From Actinomycetota bacterium (GTDB lineage: Bacteria; Actinomycetota; Actinomycetes; JACCUZ01), in the NCBI GenBank assembly GCA_030841025.1, contig JAVEDJ010000197.1, positions 1 through 34,100 on the forward strand: a stretch of 34,100 bases of DNA. Reading direction: 5' to 3'. Numbering within the stretch: the first letter of the stretch is position 1; each line of letters opens with the position of its first letter. The notes beneath the pieces were generated by a model that saw only the letters and a list, made by a program, of their open reading frames with translations, was not told the origin of the DNA and ran no database searches. Of this stretch, positions 1 through 7,288 are shown piece by piece. A program made the position numbers and the translations under genes.

Positions 1-366
1 GGAGTGCTCACCGGCGGCCACCTCAACGCGTCGTACGCCGCCGCGGACCTGCTGGTCCTCGCCTCGCGCGCCGAGACCTACGGCATGGTCGTGACCGAGG
101 CGCTGGCGCGCGGGCTCCCTGTCGTCGCGACAGCGGTCGGCGGGGTGCCGGAAGCGCTCGGCCACGGCGCTCATGGAAGCCGGCCGGGCGTACTGGTCCC
201 GCCGGGCGACCCGGCGGCTTTCGGTGCCGCGCTACGCGACTGGTTCGTCGACGCCGATCTGCGGCGACGGCTGCGGCGGGCCGCCCGCGAGCGGCGCACG
301 GCGCTGCCCGGCTGGTCGAGCAGCGCTGCGGCGATCTCGCGGGTCCTGACCGAGGCCGGCCAGTGA
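1..366 (+). CDS. Glycosyltransferase family 4, C-terminal part (partial at window start)
   Basis: The reading frame is open from base 1, so the gene begins upstream and only about 121 C-terminal residues are visible. These match the donor-binding Rossmann half of GT-B (GT4) glycosyltransferases: the segment 'AADLLVLASRAETYGMVV' and the E-x7-E arrangement (ETYGMVVTE) followed by 'ALARGLPVVAT' and 'GGVPEAL', which bind the nucleotide-sugar. It would transfer a sugar from an NDP donor; the acceptor cannot be told. The stop lies 22 bp before the methyltransferase start, so the two are probably one transcript. The following flippase-like and RibD-like genes suggest a small biosynthetic operon rather than general cell-wall synthesis (inference). 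The family call is secure, the substrate unknown. Confidence 0.85.
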   Translation, partial: GVLTGGHLNASYAAADLLVLASRAETYGMVVTEALARGLPVVATAVGGVPEALGHGAHGSRPGVLVPPGDPAAFGAALRDWFVDADLRRRLRRAARERRTALPGWSSSAAAISRVLTEAGQ

Positions 367-388: not shown

Positions 389-1222
389 ATGAGCGTCGAG
401 ACGGTCCGGGTGAGCCCGGAGTGGCTGGCGTTGCGGGAGCCGGCCGACGCGCAGGCCCGTGCGGCCGACCTCGTCAGCCGGGCCCGGCAGCACCTGCCGG
501 CCAACGGTCGCCTGGTGATCCACGACCTGGGCTGCGGCACCGGGGCGATGACCCGCTGGCTCGCCCCGCTGCTGCCCGGGCCGCAGCACTGGGTCCTGTA
601 CGACCGGGACGCTGACCTGCTCGCCGCTGCCCCGGCGGACCTCCCCGCTGCAGCCGCAGACGGGACCGCGGTGACCGCCGAGACCCGCCAGTGCGACATC
701 ACCCGGCTGGACCCGGGCGAGCTGGCGGACGCGTCCCTGCTCACCGCCTCGGCCCTGTTGGACATGCTGACTGCAGACGAGCTGGACCGGCTGGTCAGGT
801 CATGTGCCGGCGCCGGCTGCCCCGTACTGATGACCGGGTCCGTCGTCGGACGCGTCGACCTCCTCCCGGGCGACCCGCTGGACGAGCTCGTCGCGGACGC
901 GTTCAACGACCACCAGCGCCGTACGACCGGTGGCCGGCGACTGCTCGGGCCGGACGCGGTCGCTGCTGCGGTCGACGCGTTCACGCGGCTCGGTGCCGAG
1001 GTGGTCGTCCGGCCCAGCCCCTGGCGGCTCGGCCCTGCTCATAGCGGCTCGGCCGAGCTGACCGCGGAGTGGTTCACCGGCTGGGTCGGCGCGGCGGTCG
1101 AGCAACGGCCGGAGCTCGTCGGCCCGGGCGCCGCCTACGTGCGGCGGCGCCGGGCCGAGGCAGCCACCGGCCGCCTGGCTGTCACGGTGCACCACGAGGA
1201 TCTGCTGGCCCTGCCGCGATGA
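389..1222 (+). CDS. Class I SAM-dependent methyltransferase
   Basis: A 277-aa soluble protein with a Rossmann methyltransferase core. Motif I reads 'VIHDLGCGTGAMTRWL' around residues 47-62, an acidic residue follows in 'VLYDRD', and 'ASLLTASALLDMLT' occupies the motif IV region. The ATG at 389 follows a GGGG-rich stretch; no strong Shine-Dalgarno is seen, but initiation could be helped by coupling to the glycosyltransferase ending 22 bp upstream. The substrate is not recognisable. In actinobacteria genes of this type sit between a glycosyltransferase and a UPF0104 membrane protein, which points to modification of a glycosylated small molecule or lipid (inference). There is no signal peptide, so it should act in the cytoplasm. 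Confidence 0.85.
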   Translation: MSVETVRVSPEWLALREPADAQARAADLVSRARQHLPANGRLVIHDLGCGTGAMTRWLAPLLPGPQHWVLYDRDADLLAAAPADLPAAAADGTAVTAETRQCDITRLDPGELADASLLTASALLDMLTADELDRLVRSCAGAGCPVLMTGSVVGRVDLLPGDPLDELVADAFNDHQRRTTGGRRLLGPDAVAAAVDAFTRLGAEVVVRPSPWRLGPAHSGSAELTAEWFTGWVGAAVEQRPELVGPGAAYVRRRRAEAATGRLAVTVHHEDLLALPR

Positions 1223-1345
1223 TTTCCGACCGAGCCGGTGAACCCCGGGGGCCCGCCGCACGTATCCCCGATCAGGGAGCGGCTCCGCACGGGTGACGGT
1301 GTGTGCGACGCTTCGCCAGCACCGACGAGGGAGTCGAGCGCCAGG

Positions 1346-2332
1346 ATGAGCCGGACGTTGGCGGGGTGGGCGCGCCTGCTGGGTGCCGCCGCGATCCTCG
1401 CGGTCCTGGTCTGGCGGCTGGGTACTGGCCCCTTCCTCGACGGCATCCACGCCGTCGACGGGCGGTCGCTGGCAGCGGCCGGCGTCATCGCGGTGCTGAC
1501 CACGGTCTGCTGCGCCTGGCGCTGGCGAACGGTCGCCCGCGGTCTCGGCGTGGATCTGCCGTTCGGCGTGGCGGTCGCCGCGTACTACCGGTCGGTGTTC
1601 CTCAACACGGTGCTCCCCGGCGGCGTGGTCGGCGACGTGCACCGCGGGGTGCGCCACGGCCGCGACGTCGGGGACGTTGGCCGTGCGCTGCGGGCTGTCG
1701 CCTGGGAACGCACCGCCGGACAGGTCGTGCAGGGCGTGCTGACCACGATCGTGCTGCTCTCGTTTCCTTCGCCGGTTCGCTCGTCCATGCCGGTGGTCGC
1801 GGTCGCGCTCGCGGCGCTCGCGCTCGGCGTCGTACTCCTGGTCCGGGCCATGCCGGAGGGCGGGCGGTCGCGGTGGGCGCGCACCTGGCGGGCCGCCCGC
1901 TCCGACGTCCGTGTCGGGCTGCTCGCACGCCGAGCGTGGCCCGGCATCGTGCTGCCCTCCGCCATCGTCGTGGCCGGCCATGCGGCCACCTTCCTGATCG
2001 CCGCGCGGACCGCGGGCGCCACAGCCTCGTTCGCCCGCCTGCTGCCCTTGGCGCTGCTCGTGCTGCTGGGCGCGACGGTGCCGAGCATCGCCGGATGGGG
2101 TCCCCGGGAAGGTGTGGCGGCGTGGGTGTTCGGCGCGGCCGGGCTGGGCGCGGCCCAGGGAGTGGCCACCGCCGTGGTCTACGGCGTGATGGTGGTCGTC
2201 GCCAGCCTGCCCGGCGCCGTGGTGCTCGTCATGGCGTGGCTGCACCGGCGCGCCGGGCGGCGCGACCCGGCGGGCCCAGCGCAGTGGCGGGTGCCGGCGG
2301 CGGCCAGGTCGGAAAGGGCCGGGCGTGGCTGA
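1346..2332 (+). CDS. Lysylphosphatidylglycerol-synthase TM-region / UPF0104 family membrane protein (flippase-like)
   Basis: A polytopic membrane protein of about 328 aa. The ORF track starts at a GTG (1238), but the extra 36 residues are polar and lack a ribosome site. The ATG at 1346 (MSRTLAGWARLLGAA) leads directly into the first membrane helix and has GAGGGAG upstream at long spacing. Several hydrophobic segments follow, with family-typical 'YYRSVFLNTVLPGGVVGDVHRG' and 'LLVLLGATVPSIAGWGPREGVAAWVFGAAGLG'. This family covers the flippase half of MprF and stand-alone relatives thought to move lipids or lipid-linked compounds across the membrane. No aminoacyl-transferase domain is attached, so lysyl-PG synthesis itself is not predicted. 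It overlaps the RibD-like gene by 8 bp. Confidence 0.82.
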   Translation: MSRTLAGWARLLGAAAILAVLVWRLGTGPFLDGIHAVDGRSLAAAGVIAVLTTVCCAWRWRTVARGLGVDLPFGVAVAAYYRSVFLNTVLPGGVVGDVHRGVRHGRDVGDVGRALRAVAWERTAGQVVQGVLTTIVLLSFPSPVRSSMPVVAVALAALALGVVLLVRAMPEGGRSRWARTWRAARSDVRVGLLARRAWPGIVLPSAIVVAGHAATFLIAARTAGATASFARLLPLALLVLLGATVPSIAGWGPREGVAAWVFGAAGLGAAQGVATAVVYGVMVVVASLPGAVVLVMAWLHRRAGRRDPAGPAQWRVPAAARSERAGRG

Positions 2333-3017
2333 GCGGCCCTACACCCTGCTCAGCTGCGGCACGTCGATCGACGGATACCTCGGCGGCGCGACCGAGCAGC
2401 GCCTGGCGCTGTCCAACGAAGCCGACTTCGACCGGGTCGACGCCGTTCGCGCCGGCTGCGACGCAATCATGGTGGGCGCGGCCACCGTCCGACAAGACAA
2501 CCCGCGGCTGCTGGTGCGCTCGGCCGCGCGGCGGGACGAACGGGTCGTCCAAGGACTGGGCCCGTCACCGATCAAGGTGACCGTGACCAGGGGCGCCCAG
2601 CTGGACGCCTGCGCGAACTTCTTCACCGTGGGCGACGTCGAGAAACTGGTCTACTGCGCGAGCGCCGCGGTGGCCGAGGCCCGCTCCCGGCTGGGGCCGG
2701 TGGCGACCGTGATCGACGGCGGCTGGCCGGTCGACATGCGGCAGGTCAGCGAGGATCTCGGTGCGCGCGGCGTGCGGCGAATGATGGTCGAGGGCGGCGG
2801 CACGGTGCACACGCAGTTCCTCACCGGTGACCTCGCCGACGAACTGCAGCTGGTCGTGGCGCCGTTCTTCATCGGCGACTCCCGCGCCCGGCGGTTCGTC
2901 AGCGACGGCCAGTTCCCGTGGAACCCGCAGCGGCGCGCGACCCTCGCGGAGGTTCGCCAGATCGGTGACGTGGTGCTGCTTCGCTATGCCCTCTCGTCGC
3001 GGTTTCGCCTGGACTGA
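2325..3017 (+). CDS. RibD C-terminal / dihydrofolate-reductase-fold reductase
   Basis: A 230-aa protein starting at GTG 2325 with GGAAAGG upstream inside the preceding gene. It has the RibD_C fold signatures: 'TSIDGYL' near residues 13-19, 'DAIMVGAATVRQDNPRL' near 46-62, and 'MMVEGGGTVHTQFL' with 'DELQLVVAPFFIGD' in the C-terminal half. In riboflavin synthesis this fold performs the NADPH-dependent reduction of the ribosyl side chain of a pyrimidine. Here there is no deaminase domain, so it is not a complete RibD, and free-standing relatives reduce pterin- or pyrimidine-like compounds. Its overlap with the flippase-like gene and the nearby glycosyltransferase and methyltransferase suggest a pterin- or flavin-precursor-derived product (inference). 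Confidence 0.85.
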   Translation: MAERPYTLLSCGTSIDGYLGGATEQRLALSNEADFDRVDAVRAGCDAIMVGAATVRQDNPRLLVRSAARRDERVVQGLGPSPIKVTVTRGAQLDACANFFTVGDVEKLVYCASAAVAEARSRLGPVATVIDGGWPVDMRQVSEDLGARGVRRMMVEGGGTVHTQFLTGDLADELQLVVAPFFIGDSRARRFVSDGQFPWNPQRRATLAEVRQIGDVVLLRYALSSRFRLD

Positions 3018-3049: not shown

Positions 3050-3913
3050 GTGTGGAACGCGGGTGGTGTGTGGGCGCAGATCCGCCCCACAGCTTTCGTC
3101 CTTGCCCTGGCCATAGGTGCGGGAGTGCTCGCCGGGACGGGCCCGGTGACGTCGGCCGGCGACGACATCCGGTTGGTGCAGTTCAACCTGTGCGGACACG
3201 TCTGCCGCGACGACGACGCCGACAAGGTCGGCGGCGTCGTCAACTCCTTGGCGGGCTTCCATCCAATGGCGGTCAGCCTGAACGAGCTCTGCCGCCCGCA
3301 GCTCGCCGCGGTCCTCGACGGCATCTCCAGACGTGGCTGGGCGATGCACTCCCGGTTCTTGGTCACCGAGCGCGGCGGGTGCAGGGGCGGCGTGGACTAC
3401 GGCATCGCCGTACTGACTCGCACCACCATCGTCGATGCCGACCCGGTGACTTACGCTGCCCAGAACCACGTGGGCACCACCGAGCTCCGCGGGCTGCTGT
3501 GCGCGAAGGCGGAGCTCGGGAGCCGTCCGACGCGCATCTGCACGTCGCACGTCGTGGCCGCCGACGAAGACCCCAGTGGTGACATCCGGCGCGAGCAGGT
3601 CGCGGCGGCCGCGCGCTGGGTCGCCGCCTACCGCGTCCCCGTCGTGGTCATGGGCGACTTCAACCTGCGCCCCACCGACAGAGCAATGAGCGCCCTGTAC
3701 ACGCGATCGCATCGGGGCGGCGGGAACGGCATTTTCGAGGAGGTCGACCAGGGATCGGAGCACTGCCGGTGCGGCGAGCACACCTACGATTCGGGCGGGA
3801 AGTATGACTACATCTTCGTGAGCGCCCACGACTTCGTCGTGGCCGAGGGGGACGCGACCGCGTCGAGGTTCTCCGACCACGACCTTTTGCGCGGCTGGGT
3901 CATCACCCGCTGA
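3050..3913 (+). CDS. Secreted endonuclease/exonuclease/phosphatase (EEP) superfamily enzyme, Cys-rich
   Basis: 287 aa from a GTG start (a second GTG at codon 7 is possible). Residues about 10-35 form a hydrophobic leader ending near 'TSAGDD', which suggests export. EEP motifs are present in order: 'VQFNLCGH', 'LNELCR' (metal-binding Glu), 'CTSHV', 'VVMGDFNLRPTD' (catalytic Asp/Asn), 'KYDYIFVS' and 'SDHDLL' (catalytic His). The family includes DNase I-like nucleases, sphingomyelinases and inositol-phosphate phosphatases; the substrate is not decidable here. Eight cysteines occur after the leader (NLCGHVC, ELC, GGC, LLC, RICTS, EHCRC), consistent with disulfides in an extracellular enzyme. The gene converges on the CDP-alcohol phosphatidyltransferase/sulfatase fusion with 32 bp between the stops. 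Confidence 0.82.
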   Translation: MWNAGGVWAQIRPTAFVLALAIGAGVLAGTGPVTSAGDDIRLVQFNLCGHVCRDDDADKVGGVVNSLAGFHPMAVSLNELCRPQLAAVLDGISRRGWAMHSRFLVTERGGCRGGVDYGIAVLTRTTIVDADPVTYAAQNHVGTTELRGLLCAKAELGSRPTRICTSHVVAADEDPSGDIRREQVAAAARWVAAYRVPVVVMGDFNLRPTDRAMSALYTRSHRGGGNGIFEEVDQGSEHCRCGEHTYDSGGKYDYIFVSAHDFVVAEGDATASRFSDHDLLRGWVITR

Positions 3914-3945: not shown

Positions 3946-6342
3946 CTACGGAGTCGCCGGTTGCCCGCCGTACGCGGTGAGGAAGCGGTCGCGAAACGCA
4001 CTCATCGGCCACACGGGTGCGTGCGGGTCGGGCCGCAACCCGTCCTGCCAGCCCCACCCGGAGATCCGGTCCATGACCGCCTTGTCGTGGGCGACGATCG
4101 TGATCGGCACGTCGTGGCTCGCGTCTGGACCGGTGATGATCGTCGCGGGCTGGTGATCGCCCAGGAGGACAAGGACGAGGTTGTCGTCGGCGTAGTGCTC
4201 CACGAACGAGACGAGGGTGTTCACCGTGTACCGGACCGACCGGCCGTACGCCGCGCGTACCTTGTCGCGATCGCTCCACAGGGCGGCTCGCGACACCTGC
4301 TCGACGGGCATCCTGGCGAAGACCGAACCGTCGCCGACCTTGCTCCAGTCGATCAGCCGCGGTATGCGCGTCCACGGTTCGTGACTCGACACGAGGTCGA
4401 TCTCAGCCATCACGGGAGCACGGTCGGGTGCCGCGAGCTCCAGGCGTTGGAAGGCCGACATGACGTACTGGTCGGGCATCGAGGCGTAGGCGAAGGTCGG
4501 ACCGGCATACCCGACGTTGTGCCGCTCGTAGAGCTGGTCGTAGTGATAGAACGACCTGCCCTGCGGCCAGTCCCGGTTGTTGGACGGCACGTCGGCGACC
4601 GTCCGCCAGCCCGCGCGCTTGAACGCCTTGCTGAGCGTGAAGCGGTCGCTCGTGACCAGCTGGTCGTAGCGCCGCTGGCTGTCGACCCGCACCCCCGACT
4701 GCAGAGTCGCGTGGGCCAGCCAGCTGATGCCACCGAACGTCGGTGAGGTGAGGAAGGCGCTGCGGGAGGAGAAGCCGGCCGCCTGCAGTCGCCGGGTGCC
4801 TGTGTCGAGCGCCGCATTGACCTGCGGCGAGAAGGCCGAGTCCTGGACCGCGACCCGCCCGTAGCTCTCGACGAAGGCCACGATGACGTCCTTGCCGCGC
4901 AGGCCGGTCAACAGCTGGTCGCTCGGGCTGTCATGGAAGCGATCGTGGGCGATCTCGTCCGCGAAGATCGCGTGGTCCAGCACGCCGTTGCGCACTGCGC
5001 GCGCCTGGTCGTAGGCGAGGCCGGCTGCGCTCGTGGAGGCGACAGGCGTGCCGGAGACGAGCTGCACGCCGAGGACCGCGCACAGCACCCAGACGAGGCC
5101 GAGCGCCGTGACAGCCCTCAGTGACCAGGTGCGGTGGCGCGCCGCGAACCGGGTCAGGTGCAGCACCGACAGGGTCGTGAGGACGAGCACGACGACGGCG
5201 AGCAACCCCGCACCGACGATGGCCACGTTCGCGCCGGTTTCGCCGAACGAGCCGCGCAGCGTCTCGACCGCAGACCCGAGGTAGCCCCAGTCGGTCACCG
5301 GGTTGAACGGACGGGCGAGAGTCGCGAAGACGCCCATGTCGAGGAGCTTCACGAGGACCAGCAGGCCGAGTGCGGGTCCGAGCATCCACGCCAGGACGCG
5401 TCGTGCGGTGCCGGGCAGGACGAGAGCCATTGCGACGACGACAAGTCCTTCGACGGGGATCCGCACGAACTCGCCGAGCGTGAGACGACTCAGCTGGTTC
5501 GGAGCGACGAGGGCGACCCACACGAGCAGCAGGGCCAGGACCGTGGTCGTCGCGGCGGCGACGGTGCGCAATCGCCCTCGGGCCGGTCCCGGCTCAGCTG
5601 CGTCGGGGAGACTGCCCGACTGATCCGCAGCTGCCAGGGACGTGCCAGATGCGGCGCGCCGCCGACACCACAACCACCACACACTACGGCTGAACGACTC
5701 CGTGAGCAGCGCGAGGGACGCGACGAGCGCGGCGTACGTCCACGACCGGGGCAGGACGTCCGCCGCCGCGACCGTCAGCGTGATGCCCTGGATCGCCGCA
5801 ACGACCTTGCCCCAGTAGCGCGGTGGCAAGGTCTCGCGCAGCCACGGCAGCGGCCGACCGGCCACGACGAACGCGTAGCGCGCCACGCCGATCGTGAGCA
5901 CCCACCACCCGAAGGACGAGGCGACGTACACGCTGAGGACGAGGATCAGGAACGAGTCGACCTCCTGGTCGAAGTGCCGGCCGACGCTCGATGCCGTCCT
6001 GGTCCGCCGCGCCACCCAGCCGTCGACCGCGTCCAGCACCAGCGCTACGGCCGTGAGCGCCACCAGCGTCGACACTGGCGAGCGCTGCCCGAGCGAGTCC
6101 GCGACCAGTGCCGCCACGCCGCCGACGAGCGTGGCGCGGGCGAGCGTCACCCCGTCGGCGGGCCCGAGCGCGCCGGCTCCAGAACGCGCCAGGCCACGGG
6201 CCAGGGCGGCGTTGGTGACCACGCCGCAGGCGATGCCGACGACCCACCCGGCGATGCCCAGGCCGAGGGTTCCGGCCAGTACGGCGAGCAGCATCAGCTG
6301 CGCGGTCAGCCCAATCGCCGGGCCGGTTCGAACCGATGGCAC
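3946..6342 (-). CDS. Bifunctional membrane protein: CDP-alcohol phosphatidyltransferase + LtaS/sulfatase-like domain
   Basis: The track ORF runs to 6558, but its first 72 residues are Cys/polar, overlap the divergent methyltransferase and lack a ribosome site. A GTG at 6342 with GGAGG just upstream gives 798 aa beginning VPSVRTGPAIGL. Residues 104-129 carry a perfect CDP-alcohol phosphotransferase motif (D104, DG107-108, AR111-112, G121, D125, D129). Further hydrophobic helices follow, then from about residue 484 an alkaline-phosphatase-superfamily domain: 'VIVAFVESYG', 'SPTFGGISWLAHAT', 'DLVSSHEPW' and 'VLLGDHQPAT'. The first half should join a CDP-activated lipid to an alcohol. The second resembles enzymes that transfer or remove phospho-groups outside the membrane. 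Fused, they could make and then use a phospholipid head group (inference). No partner gene is obvious nearby. Confidence 0.8.
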   Translation of the reverse strand: MPSVRTGPAIGLTAQLMLLAVLAGTLGLGIAGWVVGIACGVVTNAALARGLARSGAGALGPADGVTLARATLVGGVAALVADSLGQRSPVSTLVALTAVALVLDAVDGWVARRTRTASSVGRHFDQEVDSFLILVLSVYVASSFGWWVLTIGVARYAFVVAGRPLPWLRETLPPRYWGKVVAAIQGITLTVAAADVLPRSWTYAALVASLALLTESFSRSVWWLWCRRRAASGTSLAAADQSGSLPDAAEPGPARGRLRTVAAATTTVLALLLVWVALVAPNQLSRLTLGEFVRIPVEGLVVVAMALVLPGTARRVLAWMLGPALGLLVLVKLLDMGVFATLARPFNPVTDWGYLGSAVETLRGSFGETGANVAIVGAGLLAVVVLVLTTLSVLHLTRFAARHRTWSLRAVTALGLVWVLCAVLGVQLVSGTPVASTSAAGLAYDQARAVRNGVLDHAIFADEIAHDRFHDSPSDQLLTGLRGKDVIVAFVESYGRVAVQDSAFSPQVNAALDTGTRRLQAAGFSSRSAFLTSPTFGGISWLAHATLQSGVRVDSQRRYDQLVTSDRFTLSKAFKRAGWRTVADVPSNNRDWPQGRSFYHYDQLYERHNVGYAGPTFAYASMPDQYVMSAFQRLELAAPDRAPVMAEIDLVSSHEPWTRIPRLIDWSKVGDGSVFARMPVEQVSRAALWSDRDKVRAAYGRSVRYTVNTLVSFVEHYADDNLVLVLLGDHQPATIITGPDASHDVPITIVAHDKAVMDRISGWGWQDGLRPDPHAPVWPMSAFRDRFLTAYGGQPATP

Positions 6343-6439
6343 CGTGCCTCCGCGTCGCTGGGTACGGCAGTGGGCTACATCGATGAGAACGGGAGAAGCG
6401 GCCGTTTCGTTCAAATCCCGGTCCGGAGGAGTGCTACCG
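6343..6439. promoter_or_regulatory. Divergent promoter region between the fusion enzyme and the methyltransferase
   Basis: This 97-bp spacer separates two genes read in opposite directions and must hold both promoters unless they start inside the neighbours. It is somewhat richer in A/T than its surroundings. I see a good ribosome site for each gene (GGAGG before the GTG at 6342 on the minus strand; GGAGGA nine bases before the ATG at 6440 on the plus strand), but no convincing -35/-10 pair. Confidence 0.4.
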
Positions 6440-7288
6440 ATGGCGGACACCCCTGTCGAGCAGCCAGTATGCGGCGATGCGCGGCACGCGTCGCACGTTC
6501 CGCACGGACTGAGGAAGGCCATGAGACAGGACGAGGACGCTCCTTTTGTCCCAGCCATGGAGCGGGCCCGCCGATCGGCGTACGCCCCCGGCGAGTTCGT
6601 CGATCAGGAAAACTTCATGCCGAGCGGCGAAATCCTTGCCTTGGCCGTTCGGGCCGGTGTCGGGCCTGGCGTTTCCGTGCTGGACCTGTGTTGCGGAGTG
6701 GCCGGGCCCGGACGGTTCATCACTCGGGAGCTGGCGTGCACATATCTGGGAGTGGACCACAGCCCCAGCGCCATTGCCCTCGCACGTGAGCGCGCCCGCG
6801 ACCTTGCCTGCCGCTTCGAGGTATCGCGCATCCCCCCGATTCCGGCTGGCCCGTTCGACGTCGTACTCCTGCTGGAAACCATGTTGCTCTTTCCCGACAA
6901 GGAGGCGCTCCTTCGCGAGATATCCCCGGCGCTCCCGATCGGGGGGCGCTTCGCCTTCACCCTGGAGGAGGGGCAGCCCTTGACGGCCGCGGAACGAGAC
7001 CGCATGCCGCACGCCGACACCGTGCGGCTCATTCCCTTGTCCGAGATGGTCTCCTGCCTGGAGCGGGTCGGGATGCGGGTCCGCTGGCAGAACGAGTGCA
7101 GTCAGTCCCACCGGGCCGTGGTCGATTCGTTGATCACCGCGTACACCGTCCATGAGTCGGACATTGCCGCGCACATCGGGCGCCGGGCCCTGGATGATCT
7201 GCTGGCCGCCCACCGGCTCTGGAGCGACTGGCTGCGAGAGGGACGGGTGCGCAAGTTCGCGTTCGTGGCCGAGAAGACCACGGGCTGA
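6440..7288 (+). CDS. Class I SAM-dependent methyltransferase
   Basis: The track ORF begins at 5894 but runs antisense through the fusion enzyme. The ATG at 6440 is preceded by GGAGGA at nine bases and gives 282 aa. Motif I is 'VLDLCCGVAGPGRFIT', followed by 'YLGVDHSPSAIALARERA' (acidic SAM-ribose contact) and 'FDVVLLLETMLLFPDKEALLREISPALPIGG' (motifs IV-V). The C-terminal third is helical and closes with 'KFAFVAEKTTG'. The substrate is unknown; the fold is shared with small-molecule N- and O-methyltransferases. Third codon positions contain clearly more A/T (cct, cca, gta, ttt, gga, tat) than in gyrA or parB, suggesting a different origin from the core genes. It is divergent from the fusion enzyme and stops about 110 bp before the tRNA-Ala 3' end. 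Confidence 0.82.
   Translation: MADTPVEQPVCGDARHASHVPHGLRKAMRQDEDAPFVPAMERARRSAYAPGEFVDQENFMPSGEILALAVRAGVGPGVSVLDLCCGVAGPGRFITRELACTYLGVDHSPSAIALARERARDLACRFEVSRIPPIPAGPFDVVLLLETMLLFPDKEALLREISPALPIGGRFAFTLEEGQPLTAAERDRMPHADTVRLIPLSEMVSCLERVGMRVRWQNECSQSHRAVVDSLITAYTVHESDIAAHIGRRALDDLLAAHRLWSDWLREGRVRKFAFVAEKTTG

Follow-up and report, generated by a model that had tools for sequence, protein, structure and literature searches.

The window, an entire contig of 34.1 kb from an actinobacterial assembly of 4.09 Mb in 433 contigs, carries on its minus strand one long reading frame, from a GTG at 6342 to a stop codon at 3946-3948, that encodes a single chain of 798 amino acids. The sequence GGAGG lies directly upstream of this GTG. 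An upstream ATG, which would lengthen the protein to 870 residues, was dropped, since conservation begins at about residue 2 and the GGAGG precedes the GTG. In the AlphaFold2 model (mean pLDDT 92.5, pTM 0.76) the chain runs through two extra helices, a six-helix phosphotransferase core, a linker, about five membrane helices and an alkaline-phosphatase-type domain (Table 1). An earlier note on this DNA had proposed that a CDP-alcohol phosphatidyltransferase and an LtaS-like domain share one 798-aa chain, and Pfam, the family profile and the AlphaFold2 and Foldseek results all agree with it. The membrane module of about five helices would place the C-terminal domain outside the cell, as in LtaS. 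Both active sites look intact. Elsewhere in the window are genes that we take, from reading their translations by eye, to be homologues of gyrA, gyrB, recF, dnaN and dnaA.

Table 1. The fusion gene, its parts and its neighbours in the window (fractions refer to the 80 loci described in the text)
Feature	Positions	Strand	Basis
GT4 glycosyltransferase, cut by contig end, C-terminal 121 residues only	1-366	+	Pfam PF00534 1e-20; full-length orthologue in same genus
Class I methyltransferase of the cluster	389-1222	+	Pfam; orthologue adjoins cluster genes in 44/80 loci
LPG_synthase_TM flippase-like membrane protein	1238-2332	+	Pfam PF03706 3.1e-29; in 69/80 loci
RibD_C-type pyrimidine reductase	2325-3017	+	Pfam PF01872 1.6e-37; TIGR01508 129 bits (below cut-off 186); in 52/80 loci
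Predicted exported endonuclease/exonuclease/phosphatase-family protein, between RibD_C and fusion	3050-3913	+	Pfam PF03372 1.9e-13
Fusion gene: CDP-alcohol phosphotransferase + 5-TM LtaS-like module, 798 aa	3946-6342	-	Pfam, AlphaFold2, Foldseek, GGAGG, single frame in 41/80 loci
Extracytoplasmic LtaS/LtaP-like alkaline-phosphatase-superfamily domain, residues 438-798; expected site Glu492, Ser540, His654, Asp729, His730	3949-5031	-	Profile, alignment, AlphaFold2, Foldseek
Membrane module, ~5 helices, residues 254-424	5071-5583	-	AlphaFold2 helices, hydropathy; five is a reading of long helices
Arg-rich low-confidence linker, residues 230-253, predicted cytoplasmic	5584-5655	-	pLDDT 51-66; charge count
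CDP-alcohol phosphotransferase core, residues 61-241; nearest solved fold PgsA	5620-6162	-	Pfam PF01066 4.3e-14; Foldseek 7drk/7drj, TM 0.67-0.74 on target
CDP-alcohol phosphotransferase motif, residues 104-129; motif residues invariant in relatives	5956-6033	-	Pattern match, alignment
Two extra N-terminal membrane helices, residues 7-54, before phosphotransferase core	6181-6324	-	AlphaFold2 helices H7-26, H30-54; hydropathy
Second class I methyltransferase, divergent from fusion gene; start 6521 or 6557	6521-7288	+	Methyltransf_31 7.7e-11 in ORF 5894-7288; adjoins fusion in 14/80 loci

The two catalytic halves

The perfect CDP-alcohol motif reported in the earlier note is borne out: DAVDGWVARRTRTASSVGRHFDQEVD (residues 104-129, window 5956-6033) fits D-x2-DG-x2-AR-x8-G-x3-D-x3-D exactly, against a chance expectation of about 5e-7 in a chain of equal composition, and the motif is invariant in all 60-62 sequences aligned. 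The domain search that the note had suggested for this half, with CDP-OH_P_transf (PF01066), matched residues 63-207 at 4.3e-14, with 53.6 bits against a cut-off of 22. When the first half alone was searched with Foldseek, the PgsA structures 7drk and 7drj came first, at a modest E of 8e-3 and TM scores of 0.67-0.74 on the target. The likeness to PgsA consists of the same fold, an intact motif and a cytoplasmic-side active site. Unlike PgsA, the protein has two extra N-terminal helices, keeps only K...Q of the GKxKTxxQ stretch, falls far below the cut-off of the PgsA equivalog in NCBIfam (TIGR00560, 24.9 bits against 109.1) and is joined to an outer-face transferase. Moreover, the window genome has PgsA-like genes of its own besides the fusion. 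Known fusions of CDP-alcohol phosphotransferases add a cytoplasmic cytidylyltransferase, whereas the partner here would act on the opposite side of the membrane; what IPCT-DIPPS (NCBIfam NF041135) and the other fusions share with it is the joining of a CDP-alcohol phosphotransferase to another enzyme of a pathway. Inositol phosphate as the acceptor was set aside: in phosphatidylinositol phosphate synthase the last motif Asp is followed by an Arg, R94 in M. tuberculosis PgsA1 (PMC6506517), and that Arg is absent here, its place being taken by Ser130 in the window protein and by Ser or Ala in most aligned relatives.

For the second half, the single window sequence gave no match to Pfam Sulfatase at E 0.01 and none in a sequence search of the PDB, whereas PF00884 matches 29 of 39 aligned relatives at E <=0.1 (best 1.1e-8). 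The family profile of this half finds LtaP, the lipoteichoic acid primase, in the PDB at 2.5e-5, and LtaP and LtaS rank first when the whole chain is searched with Foldseek; these are the best PDB matches by sequence profile and by fold alike, and the alkaline-phosphatase-superfamily domain that had been predicted to follow the membrane helices is what the model contains, in the same order as in LtaS and LtaP. All 63 sequences compared share Glu492, Ser540, His654 and Asp729, 61 of them have His730, and five alphaproteobacterial relatives keep all five residues. The metal ligands of LtaS and LtaP (Glu, Asp and His, with a further His) have their counterparts in Glu492, Asp729, His730 and His654. 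In sequence, Thr535 aligns with the nucleophile Thr of LtaP; it was dropped as a candidate, since 7 relatives have A, G, V or I at position 535. Because Ser540 is invariant and begins a helix in the AlphaFold2 model (540-549), it is the better candidate, and, judged by conservation, Ser540 rather than the threonine of LtaS is the likely nucleophile. A profile comparison with the genome's own true sulfatase, made for the register of the nucleophile, gave an E of 0.13. The formylglycine signature C/S-x-P-x-R follows none of the Cys or Ser residues in the loop SPTFGGISWLAH. Taken with the LtaP/LtaS fold, the metal-site residues and the invariant Ser540, its absence makes a phosphotransferase or phosphodiesterase likelier than a sulfatase. 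The earlier label "sulfatase-like" therefore holds in the sense of an LtaS-type domain, by fold and residues, and fails as regards the sulfatase signature. The LtaS-like half differs from LtaS and LtaP not only in its variable position 535 and invariant Ser540 but also in its presence in Gram-negatives and its encoding within a cluster for a GTP-derived metabolite.

A conserved cluster with fused and separate forms

Comparison was made across 80 loci, the best relatives from a scan with one genome per species. The two halves form a single unbroken frame in 41 of these, in separate genomes, and are separate genes, usually close together, in the other 39; full-length one-frame relatives occur in genomes of several families. 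An assembly error joining two adjacent genes, the objection foreseen in the earlier note, is excluded by these 41 chains and by further genomes with the unbroken form. Split halves form a tandem pair in Micromonospora and Terrabacter and a divergent pair in Streptomyces; in Saccharothrix and Actinokineospora the RibD_C gene stands between them. On a tree of the second half, well-supported branches force at least 7 changes between fused and split forms, so that the joint has been gained or lost repeatedly. Such repeated fusion and splitting is the pattern expected for two enzymes of one pathway (a Rosetta-stone link), and the fact that fused and split forms travel together supports joint action of the halves. 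In one Streptomyces (L063, 11772-13547) a gene for a PMT-like membrane mannosyltransferase stands between the LtaS-like and CDP-alcohol genes, with no relative in the other loci. Some large genomes carry two copies of the LtaS-like gene (G061, G073, G095; same genus as G024).

The fusion gene belongs to a conserved cluster of roughly ten genes. The neighbour set was drawn up by clustering and Pfam scans and counted by tblastn, with short contigs lowering the counts: LPG_synthase_TM in 69 of the 80 loci, GT4 in 66, a zinc dehydrogenase (ADH) in 65, PTPS in 63, RibD_C in 52, GTP cyclohydrolase II (RibA) in 46, the methyltransferase in 44 and a creatininase-family gene in 10. When the count is restricted to loci 20 kb or longer (52), 44 have at least three of ADH, PTPS, GT4, LPG_synthase_TM and RibD_C in the vicinity; some long loci have none of these five main genes within 10 kb (L035, L041, L044, L069 and L088). 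The gene at 3050-3913, with a strong orthologue in only 1 of the 80 loci, that of a same-genus genome, is probably lineage-specific and not part of the cluster core. Directly beyond GT4 in the same-genus genome come the genes for PTPS and the dehydrogenase; in the window PTPS would lie past the end of the contig. A close PTPS-IV is absent from the window's own genome (best match 37%), which we attribute to the break of the contig within GT4.

A single residue of RibA, compared in the genes of L022-L100 (for example L063, 20918-21574), bears on where the pathway starts. The residue, Tyr in ordinary GTP cyclohydrolase II, is Tyr in all 37 loci without a creatininase-family neighbour and Met or His in all 9 with one (Fisher p 9e-10). 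A Streptomyces coelicolor RibA with Met at this position stops at the formyl intermediate. A creatininase-family formamidase acts in riboflavin synthesis (PMC9478397). Since the RibA residue tracks the creatininase-family gene, and in the light of these two precedents, it is very likely that the cluster draws on GTP and the first intermediates of the riboflavin type. The conserved neighbours identified include neither a deaminase nor a lumazine synthase, from which we infer that the product is probably not riboflavin. In the Pseudonocardiaceae-type loci L069, L070, L076 and L095, which have the creatininase-family gene, the RibA residue is His, not Met.

Of the 63 cluster PTPS proteins, 62 have FGPAQ, which the AGeNNT report gives as the mark of PTPS-IV (COG0720), with GTP cyclohydrolase (PF00925) and RibD_C (PF01872) as its gene neighbours (PMC5445326). 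The likeness extends to all three of these features; in the text consulted, its authors mention no genes for a CDP-alcohol phosphotransferase, an LtaS-like protein, a flippase, GT4 or a creatininase, nor do they assign a pathway. Elsewhere PTPS-IV is linked to archaeal F420, as an unpublished result (PMC5041015). The usual HGH is HGA in 63 of 63 cluster PTPS proteins, so that one usual metal ligand seems to be lost, and the CxxxHGH motif is absent.

Co-occurrence was counted in 148 genomes of the class, PTPS-IV being scored only for strong matches (E <1e-30). The CDP-alcohol half and PTPS-IV occur together in 19 genomes, alone in 2 and 1, and neither in 126 (Fisher p 1e-20, a value that ignores shared ancestry); for the LtaS-like half and PTPS-IV the corresponding numbers are 16, 1, 4 and 127 (p 7e-17, with the same reservation). 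The LtaS-like half never occurs without the CDP-alcohol half (17 of 17 genomes, in 10 genera), and 4 of the 20 PTPS-IV genomes have no LtaS-like half.

Outside the actinobacteria the unfused cluster recurs in alpha- and gammaproteobacteria. The complete gene set lies on Agrobacterium and Peteryoungia plasmids, and on a Thiodictyon plasmid most of it surrounds the CDP-alcohol gene, with an LtaS-like match in an adjoining unannotated stretch. In a short form found in Rhodobacterales (Dinoroseobacter, Paracoccus and Alloyangia), the CDP-OH and LtaS-like genes are kept and an NMT1/THI5-type importer takes the place of the genes for biosynthesis, as though the head group were taken up from outside; relatives of this importer carry riboflavin (PMC4418817). 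This short form, which has GT4 besides the ABC importer, lies at L109 11668-19446, L113 11638-18338 and L114 11626-19424. Conversely, Methylosinus and Palleronia plasmids carry the biosynthetic genes with neither membrane enzyme within about 8 kb, and these, with the four PTPS-IV genomes that have no LtaS-like half, indicate that the small molecule can be made without it. Taken together, these forms suggest two parts, a soluble biosynthetic core and a membrane module that includes the fusion enzyme. A cytochrome b gene, b561-like where tested, lies beside alpha- and gammaproteobacterial clusters (L110 5778-6311, L111 3429-3956, L116 11528-12085 and L113 10993-11544).

A proposed reaction sequence and its alternatives

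That both halves act in one pathway with the cluster is, in our judgement, highly probable. The scheme that we favour joins the logic of PgsA to that of LtaS in one chain, with a cluster-made alcohol X as substrate; as a whole it stands just short of an even chance. The cytoplasmic N-terminal half would transfer a phosphatidyl group, presumably from CDP-diacylglycerol, to X. The resulting phosphatidyl-X would then be moved to the outer face, probably by the LPG_synthase_TM protein acting as an outward flippase. On that side the C-terminal half, in which Glu492, Asp729 and His730 would hold a metal and Ser540 is the putative nucleophile, would pass the phospho-X head group to an acceptor or to water. 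X would most likely be a GTP-derived pyrimidine or pteridine with a polyol (ribityl) chain, a sugar chain or both, made by RibA (with the creatininase-family deformylase in some lineages), RibD_C, PTPS-IV, the zinc dehydrogenase, GT4 and the methyltransferases. The equation of X with the cluster's GTP-derived molecule is itself tentative, at near-even chances or a little under. The earlier note had suggested that one enzyme makes a phospholipid and then acts on its head group outside, a self-contained route. The domains and intact-looking sites leave this as the best reading of the chain itself; "self-contained" does not survive, the chain being part of a cluster of about ten genes.

A compact system resembling teichoic acid synthesis, or one that decorates a glucan, is a rather unlikely alternative. 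Here an ordinary polyol phospholipid, for example phosphatidylglycerol phosphate, would come from the first half, the second would move phosphoglycerol onto a GT4-built glycolipid or glucan, and the same locus would yield the GTP-derived molecule as a separate cofactor or product. The nearest solved folds are exactly PgsA and LtaP/LtaS, the GT4 has weak matches to lipid-anchor and phosphatidylglycerol glycosyltransferases, and MdoH glucan genes lie nearby in Dinoroseobacter and Methylosinus. However, the low pgsA equivalog score and the genome's own PgsA-like genes argue against an ordinary PgsA role, this reading would not account for the close link with RibA, RibD_C and PTPS-IV, and the system is present in Gram-negatives, which have no lipoteichoic acid.

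It is unlikely, too, that the outer domain is a hydrolase, cleaving phosphatidyl-X so that phospho-X or X is set free as a small exported molecule (a signal, a cofactor or something antibiotic-like). Alkaline phosphatases use a Ser nucleophile, and in this family the nucleophile loop has a single invariant hydroxyl residue, a Ser in place of the Thr of LtaS; moreover, the CDP-alcohol half is present in several lineages that have no LtaS-like half, as would fit a late release step. Nevertheless, it is transferases that come closest in structure, and the protein has kept their entire membrane module. A joining of the halves by chance or assembly error, without joint function, would be consistent with their separation in 39 loci, but it is very improbable in view of the unbroken fusions in separate genomes, the clustering of most separate halves and the presence of the CDP-alcohol half in every genome with the LtaS-like half.

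Extending the favoured sequence, in which X comes from the cluster and both halves handle it in turn, one may imagine a new class of lipid or outer-face conjugate: a GTP-derived pteridine- or flavin-like heterocycle attached through a phosphodiester, possibly a redox cofactor of the membrane surface fed by the cytochrome b561-like neighbour of the proteobacterial clusters, with the fusion enzyme building and placing it. We regard this extension as doubtful.

Meaning for the family

The claim in the earlier note that the arrangement has no assigned function agrees with NCBIfam, in which no model scores above its cut-off for the fusion chain, and the annotated records consulted name the parts by domain only. 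In the open-access literature, to which the search was largely confined, subscription journals lying mostly outside it, no paper on the fusion or the cluster was found beyond the PTPS-IV neighbourhood note. The two halves are of known families; for their combination, and for its tie to a GTP-consuming cluster, no assigned function was found.

The fusion protein is a real and widespread bacterial membrane protein, which may tether a novel lipid-linked molecule or carry it out of the cell, and the cluster around it, which appears to convert GTP into a ring compound bearing a sugar, is common to actinobacteria and proteobacteria. Should the model prove correct, a so far undescribed lipid or envelope molecule would be made by many bacteria of soil and sea, and there would be a testable pathway for the PTPS-IV subfamily, the role of which is unsettled.
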